Shown here: one piece after another, positions 33,231-47,342 of the stretch
Layout of the letters: the number at the start of each line of letters is the position of its first letter
Numbering within the stretch: position 1 is the first letter of the stretch
DNA from: Methanoculleus sp.
GTDB taxonomy: Archaea; Halobacteriota; Methanomicrobia; Methanomicrobiales; Methanoculleaceae
DNA length: 64,000 nt
Reading direction: 5' to 3'
Assembly (NCBI RefSeq): GCF_030019085.1
Contig: NZ_JASEFJ010000001.1
Span: 124,001-188,000, forward strand
The notes under the pieces: model-generated
Database searches by the model: none
The model's input: the letters and a program-made list of their open reading frames with translations, nothing else
What the model was told of the DNA's origin: nothing
Program-made: the position numbers and the translations under genes

Positions 33231-34412
33231 ATGTATCTCATCGGAGAAGCACTGGTTGGTGACGGCGCAGAACTTGCGCACGTAGACCTTATCATGGGAA
33301 ACAAAGAAGGACCTGTAGGACAGGCGTTTGCAAACGCCCTCTCGCAACTCTCCAGGGGTCACACCCCGCTCCTTGCGGTCATAAGGCCAAACCTGCCTGC
33401 AAAACCCTCGACCATCATCATCCCGAAGGTCACCCTGAAAAAAGAGTATCAGGTGAACCAGATCTTCGGGCCTGTGCAGTCAGCGGTGGCAAAGGCCGTC
33501 GCCGACTCGGTTGAGGAGGGCGTCTTTGAAGGGGTCGATATCGAGGATACCGTCATCATGGTAAGCGTCTTTGTCCACCCGACTGCCGAGGACTACAACA
33601 GGTTATACCGGTTCAACTACGGCGCGACGAAACTCGCGATCCGCCGGGCACTCGATCGGTTCCCTGATCTCGATACGCTCCTTCACGAGAAAGATCGGGC
33701 AGCCCATGCTGTAATGGGATTCAAGGTTCAGCGTCTCTGGAACCCGCCCTACCTGCAGGTTGCGATGGACCTTGTTGACAGAAACCATATGCAAAAGGTC
33801 CTTGAAGAACTGCCGGAGAGCGACCACCTGATCATCGAGGCCGGAACACCTCTTATCAAGAAGTTTGGACTCTCGATCATCTCCGAGATCCGCAAGATCC
33901 GGCAGAGCGCGTTCATCGTCGCCGACCTCAAAACCCTGGATACCGGGAACCTGGAGGCCCGCATGGCCGCTGACGCCGGTGCTGACGCCGTTGTGATCTC
34001 CGGTCTTGCCCCGCCATCGACGATCGAGAAGGCCATCCAGGAAGCCCGGAAGACCGGTATCTACACTGTGTTAGACACGCTCAACGTCAGTGATCCGGTT
34101 GCTGTCATCGGGCAATTGAAGTTGAAGCCTGATGTTGTTGAACTACACAGGGCTATCGACATCGAGGATACCGATCACGCCTGGGGCGATATCCCGGCAA
34201 TCAGGAAGGCAGGCGGTGAGAGGATGCTGATCGCGACTGCGGGCGGCATCAGGCAGCATGTTGTGAAGGATGCTCTCAGGGCTGGTGCTGACATCGTGGT
34301 GGTTGGCCGGGCAATAACCGCAAGCAAGGACATCAAACATGCGGCTGAAGAGTTTCTGGAAGAACTGAACACCGAAGAGGTTGACCAGTTCAGGATAATG
34401 ACCGATTTCTAA
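33231..34412 (+). CDS. Bifunctional formaldehyde-activating enzyme / 3-hexulose-6-phosphate synthase
   Basis: The N-terminal Fae domain (about residues 1-165) joins formaldehyde to tetrahydromethanopterin. Its landmarks are GEALVGDGAELAHVDLIMG, GHTPLLAVIRPNLPAKPST and VFVHPTAEDYNRLYRFNYGA. The C-terminal Hps domain (about 180-393, LQVAMDLVDRN, ADLKTLD, VVELHRAIDIE) is an OMP-decarboxylase-like barrel. It forms or splits hexulose-6-phosphate. In methanogens the fusion supplies ribose-5-phosphate from hexulose phosphate and captures the formaldehyde released. At 393 aa it is full length. A terminator-like palindrome follows. Confidence 0.96.
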   Translation: MYLIGEALVGDGAELAHVDLIMGNKEGPVGQAFANALSQLSRGHTPLLAVIRPNLPAKPSTIIIPKVTLKKEYQVNQIFGPVQSAVAKAVADSVEEGVFEGVDIEDTVIMVSVFVHPTAEDYNRLYRFNYGATKLAIRRALDRFPDLDTLLHEKDRAAHAVMGFKVQRLWNPPYLQVAMDLVDRNHMQKVLEELPESDHLIIEAGTPLIKKFGLSIISEIRKIRQSAFIVADLKTLDTGNLEARMAADAGADAVVISGLAPPSTIEKAIQEARKTGIYTVLDTLNVSDPVAVIGQLKLKPDVVELHRAIDIEDTDHAWGDIPAIRKAGGERMLIATAGGIRQHVVKDALRAGADIVVVGRAITASKDIKHAAEEFLEELNTEEVDQFRIMTDF

Positions 34413-37535: not shown

Positions 37536-37907
37536 TCATGGAATCCTCTCCCCGACTTCAGTCGGAGTGGTTGATGCTGACCCCGGAACACCTTCTTCAT
37601 CCGGGGCGCTCTTTAGCATGCTGCGGATGTAGTTAAGGTCGTCCTCATCTGCCACGATCTCATAAAGTATGGTTCCCAGATTTGGACAACGTTTTGTAAA
37701 GGGCAGTAATATCCGTCCTTTTTTAACCTGTAGTCCCACAAGCATCGGTTCTTTCAGGAGCATCCGGATACCTTTGAAGACAAAACCCGGAGGTATCTCG
37801 TAGTACTCTTTGCAGTGTCGCTTGACGTAACTGTTTACCTCCTCCGGTGTCGCGTCCATGAGGAGCACCTTCCCACCGAGGCTGTTTACGCAACAGGATG
37901 GCATCAT
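37536..37907 (-). CDS. DUF1894-like methanogen protein
   Basis: This 123-aa product has a central block EVNSYVKRHCKEYYEIPPGFVFKG, then VGLQVKKGRILLPFTKRCPNLGTIL. It follows the layout of the methanogen-specific DUF1894 family (a YEIPPG-type turn, then a GxxxPFTKxC strand). Function is unknown. The ATG at 37907 lies about 20-25 bases after a TATA-like TTCGTATAAAG, which favours it over the in-frame upstream start at 37988. The last 25 residues (SAPDEEGVPGSASTTPTE) look disordered. Confidence 0.6.
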   Translation of the reverse strand: MMPSCCVNSLGGKVLLMDATPEEVNSYVKRHCKEYYEIPPGFVFKGIRMLLKEPMLVGLQVKKGRILLPFTKRCPNLGTILYEIVADEDDLNYIRSMLKSAPDEEGVPGSASTTPTEVGERIP

Positions 37908-38024
37908 ATCCTGTTCGTCTTTATACGAATAAATACCTTGCCTTGTTCTGTTACCGTCACTGCGCGCACCAGGTGTTTTTAAGCCCATTCATAAGTTACC
38001 CGCCGGTCGACTTAATGCCTTAAG

Positions 38025-40682
38025 ATGCCAACCTATCTTAGCGTGGAGCACGAACCGGCGGTCAAAAAGGTCCTCTACTGGTGCGACCGGTGCAATGTTC
38101 CTCTCATCGGGCGCACCTGTGGCTGCAAGGCAAGTTCAAGAGAGGTAGCGTTGCTGCCACCGCATGATCTCCGGCCAGCGCTTGCGGCGGATATGGCCCT
38201 CATCAAACGCCTTCTTGCCGACCGATTTGGGGAGATACCTCTGCCGAGCGTTGTGCTGCTTAACAAGACCGGGGGAGTCGACAGGGCCGATCTTGTGATC
38301 GTGAACGGTGAGCGATTCGGGTGGCTCACGTTTGACCCCATCACACGACAATACAGCCTTGATATCGCGCCAGAAGCGATCGCCTGGATCCTCCCGCACG
38401 CAACCCGGGGTGTCGTTGACCTGGAGTCCGAGCCTGCCGTGCGCGCCCACAGGGGCCGTATCGGTGGGAAACGGTTTCCTCTCTCGACCCCCGTGAGAGA
38501 CGGGACGGTCATAGTCTCCTACAAAAACCGGTTCGGCACCGGGACGGTCAGGGACGGGCAGGTGCGGGTGAAGGAGCTCGTCTCTGTTGAGACGCGCGCC
38601 AGGCCTGACCCGGGATGGGATATAGTTATAGAGAGGAACCGATACCACTTGAAGAACCTGGAGCGTAACGCTGTTCGTACCATTAGAAAACACATGAACG
38701 ACCGGCCTTGCGTGAATGTCTCATTCTCCGGCGGCAAGGACAGCACCGCCGTCCTTCACCTCGCCAGAAAGGCCGGCGTGGAGAGGGCGTTCTTCATCGA
38801 TACCGGGCTCGAACTTCCGGAGACTGTTGAGTTTGCGGAGTCTCAGGGTGTCGAGATCATACGTAAGGGCGGCGATTTTTTCGAGGCCGTTGAGAAGGCC
38901 GGGCCACCAGCAAAAGATCGTCGCTGGTGCTGTAAACTCCTGAAGCTCCAGCCTTTGAAGATCTACCTGGCCGGGACGGGGCCATGTGTCACCATCCAGG
39001 GGAACCGCTGGTATGAGTCCTGGAACCGCGCCGATCTAGATGAAACCAGCCAGAACCCGGCTAACCCACTGCAGGTGAACGTCTCACCGATCCGGAACTG
39101 GCGCGCGCTTGAAGTCTTCCTCTACCTCTGGTGGCAGGGTGTTCCCCTAAACCCGCTATACGAAAAGGGACTTGAGCGGATTGGGTGTTACCTCTGTCCG
39201 GCGGTCCTGGAGAGCGAGTACGACACGCTAAGAGATTTGCATCCAGAACTTACGGGGCCGTGGGATGAATTCCTGGCCCGCTGGGCGGAGAGGAAAGGCC
39301 TGCCGGAGGCTTACTATCGCTGGGGGCTATGGCGGTGGCGGGCTCTGCCCCCGAAGATGCGGGAGGTCTGCAAGGAACACGGCATCTCCCTCAAAGATGA
39401 CTTCACCCTGAAAGCGGCCCCGGTGAATGATGTGACAGATATGGCAGCAAAGAAGAGATCAGCAACCCTTGAACCGGCACCGCCGGCAGAGATTGAGTTT
39501 AATCCGGACGAGATCCGGCGAGATTTTCCGGTTCTGGGCGACATAATCTACCTGGACAATGCGGCGACTACGTTTTCGCCAAAACCGGTCGTGGATGCGC
39601 TCGTCGAATTTGAGTACAATTACAGGGCAAATGTCGGCCGGGGCGTCCACAGGCTGACGCAGATAGCGACACAGCGTTACTGGCATGCTCACGAGAAGGT
39701 GGCCCGTTTTATCGGCGGCGAGGCGGGGGTCACGGTATTTACGAAGAACACCACTGAGGCTATCAACATGGTGGCGCAGGGTCTCTCCTGGAGATCGGGC
39801 GACCGTGTGGTGACCACCATCCTTGAGCACCATTCAAACCTCCTTCCCTGGAGGGCGCTTGCAAACCGTGGAGTTGCGCTCGATCTGATCGAGATCGATG
39901 CTGACTACGCACCAGATCTTACCGCGCTTGAGGAGAGCCTCTCCGGCGGCAGTGTCAGGCTCGTTGCTGTGACACACGCCTCAAACGCCCTTGGGGTTGT
40001 GACGCCTGTACCGGAGATCGCGCGGCTTTGCCGGGAGTACGGTGCGCTACTCCTGGTGGATGGGGCGCAGTCGCTCCCGCACATTCCGGTCGACGTCTCA
40101 ACATTGGATTGCGACTTCCTCTGTTTCTCGGGGCACAAGATCTTCGGGCCGACCGGTACCGGTGTCCTCTGGATGCGTTCAGCGCTTATCGAGCCACTGG
40201 TTCTCGGTGGCGGGATGGTCGCGAGCGTGACATCGGATGGTTACGTCCCGGCGGAGGGGTACCTCCGCTACGAGGCGGGGACGCCGAACATTGGCGGTGG
40301 TATTGCGCTCGGCGTCGCTGTGGACTACCTTTCGGCGATAGGGATGGATCGAATCCATAGACACGAAGAACGTCTTACCGCGCGGCTGATCGAGGGTCTC
40401 TCTGCGATTGATGGGGTCAGGGTCTATGCAGGGAAAAGACCCGATGCCCGGATAGGGGTCGTCTCGTTCACTATCGACGAAGTTCACCCACAGGAGGCCG
40501 CGCAGATGCTTGATGAGGAAGCGGACATCATGGTGCGCTCGGGGCACCACTGCTGTCAACCGCTGATGGATTACCTTGGACTCCCGGAGGGGACTGTTAG
40601 GGCGAGCATGGCAGCCTTCACCACAGAGCAGGAGATCGAGTTGCTCATTGCGACAGTCGCCGAGATCAGCAGGGGACGGTAG
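38025..40682 (+). CDS. Fusion of a PAPS-reductase-like protein and a cysteine desulfurase
   Basis: This 885-aa polypeptide has two halves. Residues 1-40 form a zinc ribbon (Cys20, 23, 32, 34). A PUA-like segment follows (about 120-200), then a PP-loop domain with SFSGGKDST (about 232-240). The cysteines in RWCCKLLKL, and C...C in GCYLCPAVLESEY, complete the archaeal PAPS-reductase-like part. From about residue 486 a SufS-type desulfurase begins (DFPVLGDIIYLDNAATTFSPK), with PLP lysine near 702 in SGHKIFGPTG and catalytic cysteine at 843-844 in RSGHHCCQPL. It could generate persulfide from cysteine and use it on an adenylated substrate, perhaps RNA. The function is inferred. The junction has no stop. 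Confidence 0.9.
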   Translation: MPTYLSVEHEPAVKKVLYWCDRCNVPLIGRTCGCKASSREVALLPPHDLRPALAADMALIKRLLADRFGEIPLPSVVLLNKTGGVDRADLVIVNGERFGWLTFDPITRQYSLDIAPEAIAWILPHATRGVVDLESEPAVRAHRGRIGGKRFPLSTPVRDGTVIVSYKNRFGTGTVRDGQVRVKELVSVETRARPDPGWDIVIERNRYHLKNLERNAVRTIRKHMNDRPCVNVSFSGGKDSTAVLHLARKAGVERAFFIDTGLELPETVEFAESQGVEIIRKGGDFFEAVEKAGPPAKDRRWCCKLLKLQPLKIYLAGTGPCVTIQGNRWYESWNRADLDETSQNPANPLQVNVSPIRNWRALEVFLYLWWQGVPLNPLYEKGLERIGCYLCPAVLESEYDTLRDLHPELTGPWDEFLARWAERKGLPEAYYRWGLWRWRALPPKMREVCKEHGISLKDDFTLKAAPVNDVTDMAAKKRSATLEPAPPAEIEFNPDEIRRDFPVLGDIIYLDNAATTFSPKPVVDALVEFEYNYRANVGRGVHRLTQIATQRYWHAHEKVARFIGGEAGVTVFTKNTTEAINMVAQGLSWRSGDRVVTTILEHHSNLLPWRALANRGVALDLIEIDADYAPDLTALEESLSGGSVRLVAVTHASNALGVVTPVPEIARLCREYGALLLVDGAQSLPHIPVDVSTLDCDFLCFSGHKIFGPTGTGVLWMRSALIEPLVLGGGMVASVTSDGYVPAEGYLRYEAGTPNIGGGIALGVAVDYLSAIGMDRIHRHEERLTARLIEGLSAIDGVRVYAGKRPDARIGVVSFTIDEVHPQEAAQMLDEEADIMVRSGHHCCQPLMDYLGLPEGTVRASMAAFTTEQEIELLIATVAEISRGR

Positions 40683-41078: not shown

Positions 41079-41810
41079 CTACCTCTTAACCCCTGAGATT
41101 CTCTCAGCGTGCGTAAAGACGGCCATCTCGGGGGTTCCCACAGACCCAACCAGGCAAAGGCCCCCTCCCCTCGCGACATCCACCGCAAGCGCGGTAGGCA
41201 GATCGGTGGAGACCAGCACAGGTATGCCCGCCGTCAGACATTTCCTGACCATCTCTGTGGTTACCGTGCCGGTGCTGAGCACGGTTATCTGTGATAAATC
41301 AAGACCATCACGCAGCCCATGACCGATCACCCGGTCAAGGGCGTTATGCCGGTCGAGGTCTTCAGCGCAGGTAATAACACGGCCGTCATCCATAAGCGCC
41401 ACCACATCTAGAGGGGATGAAGGCCGAAGTGCAGCGAGGGCGGCCTGGAGATCCGTGATGCTGACCGTAAGGTCTGAATCGATCGCTGGCAGTCGTTCTG
41501 TGTCGATATAGGAGACCGAACCGCCACACCCCGATAGAATGGTCTTTTTCACGCTGCCCCTCCTGAATGGGTTCTTTGTGAGAACGCTAATCCGGTTGTC
41601 CTCGATCCTGATCGACTCTATCTCATCCGCGCTCCTGACGATCTCCTCGGTATACAGGTAACCCGTGATGAAGTCTTGAAACCCGCCCGGGCTCAGGATC
41701 ACGGTTGTAAGGTGGCGACCGTTGACAAAGACCGCTACCGGTGTCTCCTCAACGACTTTCCGAACGACCCGTCTGCCGTCGATCGTGACACACTGCATCT
41801 CCCTGAACAT
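41079..41810 (-). CDS. fdhD: Formate dehydrogenase accessory sulfurtransferase FdhD
   Basis: FdhD moves sulfur from a cysteine desulfurase to the Mo/W-bis-MGD cofactor of formate dehydrogenase. The 243-aa product has LSPGGFQDFITGYLYTEEI, SGCGGSVS, DLDRHNALDRVIG and LVSTDLPTALAVDVARGGGL. Only the first cysteine of the CxxC found in E. coli is present (SGCGG), which is common outside proteobacteria. An internal ATG at 41798 is an alternative. The neighbouring fusion protein encodes a desulfurase, a possible sulfur donor. Confidence 0.93.
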   Translation of the reverse strand: MFREMQCVTIDGRRVVRKVVEETPVAVFVNGRHLTTVILSPGGFQDFITGYLYTEEIVRSADEIESIRIEDNRISVLTKNPFRRGSVKKTILSGCGGSVSYIDTERLPAIDSDLTVSITDLQAALAALRPSSPLDVVALMDDGRVITCAEDLDRHNALDRVIGHGLRDGLDLSQITVLSTGTVTTEMVRKCLTAGIPVLVSTDLPTALAVDVARGGGLCLVGSVGTPEMAVFTHAERISGVKR

Positions 41811-46040: not shown

Positions 46041-47342
46041 ATGCCCCAAGCCCGCCATCCCGCCTCATCCTTCGACGTCTTCAACGTTTACTTCGAAAGG
46101 ATCTACGACCCGACGATGCACGTGGTCTTCACGTTCGACGGTGAGATCGAGGCAGAGATCATGCGAGAGGCGACGATGAGGCTGATCGCATCAGACCCCT
46201 ATCTTCGGTCGCGCTACACGGAGGTCGATGGCCTACCGGTCTGGGAGGAGATCCCACCAGAGTGCCGGGACGGCGCGTTCTTCATCGAAAAGCGCAGCTG
46301 GCCGCTCACGCCGCCCCCGCCGCCCCCGCCGCCGCTTGACGTCCGAAAGGGGCCGCAGGTTCGGGTCGGGCTATACCGGGGGGATGAGGGTGACCGTCTA
46401 GCGGTCACCTGCCATCACGGGTTCTGCGACGCCGGTGGCGCCCTTGCCATTGCCCGGGACGTCTTCTCGGTCTACCGGAGACTCATGGAGAGCCCCGACC
46501 ACCGGCCGACAGAGCGAAAGCCCTGTGACCGGAGCATAAAGAGAATCCTCACCCTCCACTCCGAGGAGGAGAAAAGAGGGGCGCTTGCCGAGGAGGAACC
46601 TTTCGTCGATCGCTGGAGTTTCCCGGCCGAGCATCCTGGCCGGGGAAGACCCAGGGTTGCGTTCAGGACTCTTGCGCCCGAAAGGCTCGAACTTATGAAA
46701 GCGTTTGGAAAGGAGCACGGGGCCACTGTTAACGACGTCCTGATCGCTGCGTTCTTCCTGGCCTTCCGAAATATCCGGGACGACCCTTCTGACATCGGGT
46801 CACCCCGCTCCATCCTGACATCGGCCGATCTCCGGCGGAGATACCCGGGGCTCTACGACGATTGCCCCATCGCGAACCTCTCCGCCGCCTACGAGATCAC
46901 CATCACCGCCGGGGAGGGGGCGGGGCTTGAGGATATCATAGATGACGTTACGACGATAACGGCACGCCGGAAGGCCGGACACCTCGGGCTTGCGGCAATC
47001 CTCTTCTACGAGGGGATCATGGCCCGCGGGATGCCAGCGGTGCTGGAGTTCTTTGACGATATGATCGAGCGTTACACTATCTCCGGGCTCAAGAACCCGG
47101 TCTTCTCCAACCTCGGGGTCTTTGACCCCGGCGAGTTTCTCCCCGTCCCGGGGAAGGGAAGGAGCAACCTCGACCTCCTGGATGTCCAGTACCTCCCCTG
47201 CGTCTGCTGGCCCTACGGGTTCCTGATGATAGCATCCACCTTCCGCGACCGCCTGACCCTCGCCACCGCGTACGAAGAAGGGCCCTACTCAGCGGCGGTG
47301 GTGGAGCGGTTCCTGGGCTATGTGGACGGCTACCTGCCGTGA
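46041..47342 (+). CDS. Condensation-domain / acyltransferase-like protein
   Basis: This 433-aa protein belongs to the superfamily of condensation domains, alcohol acetyltransferases and wax ester synthases. The HHxxxD-type active site is CHHGFCDAGGAL (near residue 130), and a second-half block reads PVFSNLGVFDP. Eight consecutive prolines occur at about residues 91-98, so translation should need aIF5A. The substrate is unknown. Without carrier-protein neighbours, a stand-alone acyl transfer role is more likely than peptide synthesis. It lies alone between the glycosylase and flavin reductase genes. Confidence 0.72.
   Translation: MPQARHPASSFDVFNVYFERIYDPTMHVVFTFDGEIEAEIMREATMRLIASDPYLRSRYTEVDGLPVWEEIPPECRDGAFFIEKRSWPLTPPPPPPPPLDVRKGPQVRVGLYRGDEGDRLAVTCHHGFCDAGGALAIARDVFSVYRRLMESPDHRPTERKPCDRSIKRILTLHSEEEKRGALAEEEPFVDRWSFPAEHPGRGRPRVAFRTLAPERLELMKAFGKEHGATVNDVLIAAFFLAFRNIRDDPSDIGSPRSILTSADLRRRYPGLYDDCPIANLSAAYEITITAGEGAGLEDIIDDVTTITARRKAGHLGLAAILFYEGIMARGMPAVLEFFDDMIERYTISGLKNPVFSNLGVFDPGEFLPVPGKGRSNLDLLDVQYLPCVCWPYGFLMIASTFRDRLTLATAYEEGPYSAAVVERFLGYVDGYLP

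Follow-up and report, generated by a model that had tools for sequence, protein, structure and literature searches.

In the analysed window, a stretch of 64,000 nucleotides from Methanoculleus sp., we found a single gene in which a PP-loop domain of the PAPS reductase fold is joined in frame to a complete SufS-type cysteine desulfurase. Taken as a whole, the evidence is best explained by a fused sulfur-trafficking enzyme, a reading that we hold to be fairly probable, in which the SufS half would serve FdhD and the PP-loop half would perform an ATP-dependent sulfur insertion of its own. The neighbours and partners of the gene suggest that the desulfurase half feeds tungsten or molybdenum cofactors, not sulfate reduction. 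The movement of sulfur in methanogens is poorly understood and some of them appear to be without any cysteine desulfurase; the cofactors concerned here belong to CO2- and formate-handling enzymes.

The gene consisted of one intact open reading frame, free of internal stops and frameshifts (Table 1). Many relatives start at the equivalent of residue 7, thus the true start may be the GTG 18 bases downstream. From the N- to the C-terminus the protein comprised a zinc ribbon, a middle segment, the PP-loop domain, a disordered linker and the desulfurase. C20, C23 and C32 of the zinc ribbon were invariant among 76 family members, and the zinc-ribbon cysteines, SGGKDS, C302/C303, C388xxC391 and C843 were conserved across 89 distinct fused homologues. 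In the C-terminal half, Pfam Aminotran_5 matched residues 508-874 (E 4e-122), and the best-scoring NCBIfam model was the SufS model TIGR01979 (E 5e-122), with a score of 407.6 bits that did not reach the cut-off of 475.1 bits. The linker spacing varied from 27 to 100 amino acids among the homologues. AlphaFold predicted the N-terminal half confidently (mean pLDDT 92); in the model of the whole protein a disordered linker separated two folded halves, whose mutual orientation was uncertain (pTM 0.71). The in-frame fusion that the preliminary description had read from the DNA is therefore real, being an intact frame that is conserved across Methanomicrobiales, and the zinc ribbon, the SGGKDS loop, the PLP lysine and the catalytic cysteine that it had named were all confirmed and are conserved among the fused homologues. 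A methanogen DUF1894 gene (window 37536-37988), a recurrent neighbour in Methanoculleus, lay divergently at a distance of 36 bp from the fused frame.

Table 1. Features of the fused gene and of the neighbouring fdhD, with their positions in the window.
Feature	Position	Strand	Remarks
Fused gene, 885 aa	38025-40682	+	Candidate alternative start GTG 38043
Zinc ribbon, C20xxC23...C32xC34	38082-38126	+	Kept in 97-99% of 89 fused homologues
Middle segment, residues 116-187	38370-38585	+	PUA-like at best; mostly beta, well folded in the model
PAPS_reduct-fold PP-loop domain, residues 231-393	38715-39203	+	Pfam E 7e-34
SGGKDS PP-loop, residues 235-240	38727-38744	+	Invariant in 76 sequences; ATP-PPase type
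C302-C303, CC of the CC...CxxC putative [4Fe-4S] site	38928-38933	+	Invariant; aligns with the CC of 2goy
C388xxC391, CxxC of the putative [4Fe-4S] site	39186-39197	+	Invariant; aligns with the CxxC of 2goy
Linker, residues 467-490	39423-39494	+	pLDDT below 50; least conserved part of the protein
SufS-type cysteine desulfurase, residues 496-882	39510-40670	+	TIGR01979 and Aminotran_5
PLP lysine K705 (FSGHK)	40137-40139	+	At least 90% conserved among 42 fused homologues
Catalytic cysteine C843 (RSGHHC, SufS/group II loop)	40551-40553	+	97% conserved among 89 fused homologues
fdhD, convergent neighbour, Cys-loop class	41079-41810	-	PF02634 E 6.5e-51; loop KKTILSGCGG
FdhD sulfur-relay loop cysteine, residue 95	41526-41528	-	Corresponds to the Cys-121 loop in E. 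coli (PMC10609526)

The preliminary description had drawn attention to fdhD as a nearby gene that needs a desulfurase, and this hint turned into the strongest functional clue. Among 80 named loci with the fusion, 34 from many genera contained fdhD within 6 kb, upstream or downstream and on either strand; the other 46 were without fdhD nearby, some of them having short flanks. In seven loci with both genes in the same direction, the matches overlapped or almost touched, the distance between them being -16 to 29 bp. Other genes that recurred around the fusion were moeB-moaD-moaE, larE, nadA and thiM-thiE, the last pair mostly standing in place of fdhD in Methanoregula. A second module was found on a separate contig of the same genome (L132:6306-9198, G000:C22), with overlapping larE, sufS and fdhD frames and a divergent moaD; its SufS was 60% identical to the fused one. 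The pairing of FdhD with standalone relatives of this SufS was also detected in other families of the phylum, often together with LarE, MoaE/D, MoeB and NadA.

Two classes of FdhD could be distinguished. Those adjoining SufS or the fusion carried a loop cysteine (GCGG or GCGT) and the other class did not. The cysteine was present in the FdhD of all 34 named loci with fdhD beside the fusion, and four FdhD proteins beside SufS had the loop SGCGTG. In E. coli, sulfur from IscS reaches Mo-bisPGD by way of the FdhD loop cysteine, whereas in Methanococcus maripaludis an FdhD without this cysteine accompanies an apparent absence of cysteine desulfurase (PMC10609526); the pattern described here extends this link to another lineage. 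The cysteine-less class was observed at 18 loci, and in three of these, from Methanoculleus without the full-length fusion, it lay near an IscS-type desulfurase.

Across 61 genomes, in which FdhD classes were assigned by similarity and the loop was read directly only where DNA had been fetched, SufS and Cys-type FdhD occurred together in 44 (including one, G053, with its FdhD cut off at a contig end), SufS alone in 3, Cys-type FdhD alone in none and neither in 14. The association gave a Fisher p of 3e-11 with relatedness ignored. Corrected for the tree, it came down to four independent pairs, three of them agreeing (sign test p 0.25), and with only four independent contrasts the link stays suggestive. 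IscS-type desulfurases were found in some genomes lacking SufS of this type, thus the link concerns the SufS type specifically. It provides a testable rule, by which genomes with a Cys-type FdhD have SufS and genomes without SufS use a cysteine-less FdhD.

From the genomic association and the known pathway, sulfuration of Mo/W-bisPGD via FdhD is the most likely function of the SufS half. The C-terminal half would be a desulfurase derived from an older archaeal (larE)-sufS-fdhD module that stands beside molybdopterin genes. Sulfur from cysteine would form a persulfide on Cys843 and then pass to a Cys-type FdhD at its loop cysteine; this FdhD would in turn provide the Mo/W-bisPGD of formate dehydrogenases, formylmethanofuran dehydrogenases or both with its terminal sulfido ligand. 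The same half may also feed the MoeB/MoaD step of molybdopterin synthesis. Neither SufE nor a scaffold of the NifU_N or SufU/IscU type was found in the organism's own genome; with no standard acceptor in competition, direct transfer to FdhD and MoaD is plausible. Several organisms, the host included, also carry a standalone SufS-FdhD pair; the fused copy may therefore serve a further, distinct function.

For the PP-loop domain, the best Foldseek matches were APS reductase 2goy, CysD 1zun, TtuA and LarE. Its active site was mixed, combining the SGGKDS loop of ATP-PPases with cysteines in the CC...CxxC arrangement of APS reductases. The N-terminal half has two features expected of an ATP-PPase-type Fe-S sulfurtransferase, an SGGxDS PP-loop and invariant cysteines that could hold an Fe-S cluster; the cluster at C302/C303 and C388/C391 is putative. 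Motifs and fold make an ATP-dependent, Fe-S-assisted sulfur insertion the most likely activity of this half. It would be a sulfurtransferase-like domain of the ATP pyrophosphatase type, with [4Fe-4S] cysteines and an older role of its own, in which a substrate, RNA or the precursor of a cofactor, is activated by ATP for the insertion of sulfur. The fusion probably provides this domain with a tethered source, the SufS half, from which it may draw its sulfur.

The preliminary description had gone further and proposed that persulfide sulfur is channelled directly to the substrate activated by the PP-loop. This part of the proposal was not supported in the form given. Orthologues of the PP-loop half without SufS were found throughout one family, in some Methanoculleus and, outside the order, in Methanosarcinales-like genomes, which have a 4Fe-4S ferredoxin domain where SufS stands, and the SufS half instead tracks the Cys-type FdhD. 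Since there are PP-loop halves that manage without SufS, channelling may refine their function but is not basic to it. At seven loci the ferredoxin-fused orthologues adjoined a conserved, two-subunit oxidoreductase-like pair and a ThrRS-like gene, often with ThiI; these neighbours may hint at the function of the PP-loop half. A stronger version of the cis transfer, which we put forward tentatively and regard as rather unlikely, makes the N-terminal half a new class of ATP-dependent [4Fe-4S] thiolase that takes its persulfide in cis from SufS, so that one polypeptide would provide both a thio-modification of RNA or cofactor and the FdhD-dependent sulfuration of Mo/W cofactors.

The middle segment raises the question of RNA. 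Pfam did not detect a PUA domain in the fused protein and a profile comparison of the segment gave weak similarity, so that a firm PUA domain is not supported here and the segment is PUA-like at best. A clear Pfam PUA was found in a PUA-PAPS_reduct paralogue of the same genome (L131:5104-7162, G000:C11). This paralogue directly adjoins hisH, a pairing also seen at five other loci and in several lineages. The whole protein could accordingly be imagined as a dedicated RNA thiolase, with the zinc ribbon and the PUA-like part binding RNA, the PP-loop adenylating a base, SufS giving its persulfide directly and the adjacency of fdhD reflecting a shared desulfurase. The PUA of the paralogue, a fold like that of the TtuA tRNA thiolases with Fe-S and the presence of ThiI near some loci are in line with such an enzyme, and desulfurases that serve tRNA thiolation as well as Moco synthesis are known (PMC5372717). 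We nevertheless consider it somewhat unlikely, because PUA is undetectable in the fused protein itself, many genomes keep the PP-loop half without SufS, and the presence of SufS follows the Cys-type FdhD instead.

A single-pathway function in Moco synthesis is another candidate, which we judged unlikely. Here the PP-loop half would itself perform a step of Mo/W-cofactor sulfuration, as the counterpart of LarE in the larE-sufS-fdhD operons. The overlapping larE-sufS-fdhD frames of the organism's own genome fit this proposal, as does the position of moeB-moaD-moaE immediately upstream of the fusion in one locus (L081), and by fold LarE and the fused PP-loop half are both ATP-PPase sulfur enzymes. 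The PP-loop half is, however, retained in genomes that have neither SufS nor Cys-type FdhD, and the genes near its ferredoxin-type orthologues (the ThrRS-like gene, the oxidoreductase-like pair and often thiI) are not Moco genes. Two roles on one polypeptide, with the SufS half serving FdhD and the PP-loop half inserting sulfur on its own account, remain our preferred reading. In this reading the architecture, the motifs, the operon links, the co-occurrence, the loop cysteine and the single fused clade come directly from sequence, while catalysis, the Fe-S cluster, the passage of sulfur to FdhD, the enzymes served and any exchange between the two halves are inferences.

Reductases of PAPS and APS carry their nucleophilic cysteine in a C-terminal ECG-[LI]-H motif, and no such motif was found in the N-terminal half. 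C449 was present in 45 of 57 close homologues and in 1 of 12 ferredoxin-type orthologues, and is thus not conserved. At the position of SGGKDS, 2goy has SGAED. In the organism's own genome (99.6% complete) no ATP sulfurylase was detected, and the only matches to APS kinase were P-loop ones of approximately 48 residues. We concluded that, judged by these features, the N-terminal half is not a PAPS/APS reductase, given its SGGKDS loop, the missing conserved C-terminal cysteine and the missing ATP sulfurylase. The term PAPS-reductase-like in the preliminary description thus applies to the fold, as found by Pfam and Foldseek, and fails for the active site. Assimilatory (P)APS reduction by a CysH-SufS protein, as the annotation in PMC11237513 suggests, could appeal to the PAPS_reduct fold and Pfam family and to the APS-reductase-type CC...CxxC cysteines; against the intact ATP-PPase loop, the variable C449 and the lack of ATP sulfurylase and of more than short APS kinase matches, it is very improbable, and the existing CysH label is hereby corrected. 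A DndC-like role in DNA phosphorothioation was also considered and rejected, the match being marginal and partial (E 3e-4).

The same domain order was found in other genomes across Methanomicrobiales, in independent assemblies. Most of the 61 relatives searched contained the full-length fusion, among them eight single-contig genomes of several families. The 80 named loci, a few of which end at contig ends and which overlap with the genomes searched, came from Methanoculleus, Methanoregula, Methanocalculus, Methanospirillum, Methanogenium, Methanolinea and Methanocorpusculum. No frame spanning the junction was listed outside Methanomicrobiales among 247 genomes of the phylum. Some relatives had the PP-loop half only. 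Separate adjacent PP-loop and SufS genes were present in G025, with matches overlapping by 4 bp, and in G060; in G003 (L024:1498-4140) an in-frame TAG divided the fused frame into two, and in G004 (L033:5582-8455) an insertion of approximately 70 amino acids in the linker kept the frame. An artefact of assembly or annotation, or an accidental read-through, for which the split forms of G025, G003 and G060 might be quoted, was dropped as having a negligible chance, refuted by the high conservation of both halves and by full-length copies in single-contig genomes of several families and at the 80 named loci.

The PP-loop tree, for which the ferredoxin-type orthologues served as root, had a PP-loop-only group as its first branch and G060 with its adjacent genes as the next; then came the fused clade, within which the members from some Methanoculleus and from G037 were without the SufS half. 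In the SufS tree, a single clade among the FdhD-linked SufS proteins comprised the fused domains and the SufS encoded next to the PP-loop gene in G060 and G025; the sole member of this clade recorded as standing alone was that of G004, which is actually fused with the linker insertion. Both trees came from quick searches and contain some weak branches. They fit a single fusion of neighbouring genes in Methanomicrobiales followed by occasional fission or loss. The SufS half descends from an archaeal SufS-FdhD module. The findings also point to a widespread Fe-S ATP-PPase family (PRK13795-like), of which one lineage has members fused to a ferredoxin and another has members fused to a desulfurase.

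Two other features of the window were recorded. At 33231-34412 there is another fusion, of Fae with hexulose-6-phosphate synthase, which matches PRK13307, a known bifunctional enzyme. At 46041-47342 we found a Condensation-domain/PapA5-like acyltransferase, here in a methanogen.

The fusion itself is already known, since a study of archaeal fusions, PMC11237513 (mSystems 2024), lists evidently the same protein as CysH-SufS (cluster 536), exclusive to Methanomicrobiales. According to that account there are unfused sets in four assemblies, and the function and the direction of the event were left open; that study assigned the protein to assimilatory sulfate reduction as CysH and did not analyse its function. 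Literature searches, with the supplementary tables of PMC11237513 outside their scope, found no study on the function of the fusion. Relative to the cluster 536 account, the ATP-PPase active site, the linkage to FdhD and Moco and the single fused clade are added here.

Compared with known systems, the SufS half resembles, at the level of a proposal, the IscS-FdhD pathway of E. coli formate dehydrogenase, in which sulfur moves from the desulfurase to the FdhD loop cysteine and on to Mo-bisPGD (PMC10609526). It differs in being an archaeal SufS-type enzyme fused to a PP-loop enzyme, with one cysteine (GCGG) in the FdhD loop. The eukaryotic Moco sulfurase (PMC10609526) likewise connects Mo cofactor sulfuration with a desulfurase domain that is fused to a second domain. 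In that enzyme the second domain is the one that binds Moco; in the archaeal protein it is a PP-loop enzyme, and FdhD, as the Moco carrier, is a protein of its own. The N-terminal half is homologous to the PRK13795 family (NF010366 and relatives, named hypothetical protein at NCBI), sharing its zinc ribbon, middle domain and PAPS_reduct domain. The fused protein scored 395.6 bits with that family model, against a cut-off of 745, and has SufS where members outside the order have a C-terminal 4Fe-4S ferredoxin. With the Fe-S ATP-PPase sulfurtransferases TtuA/NcsA and LarE it has in common the PP-loop fold, the ATP-PPase loop and the putative Fe-S cysteines; it differs from them in belonging to the PAPS_reduct subfamily and in its four-cysteine CC...CxxC pattern.
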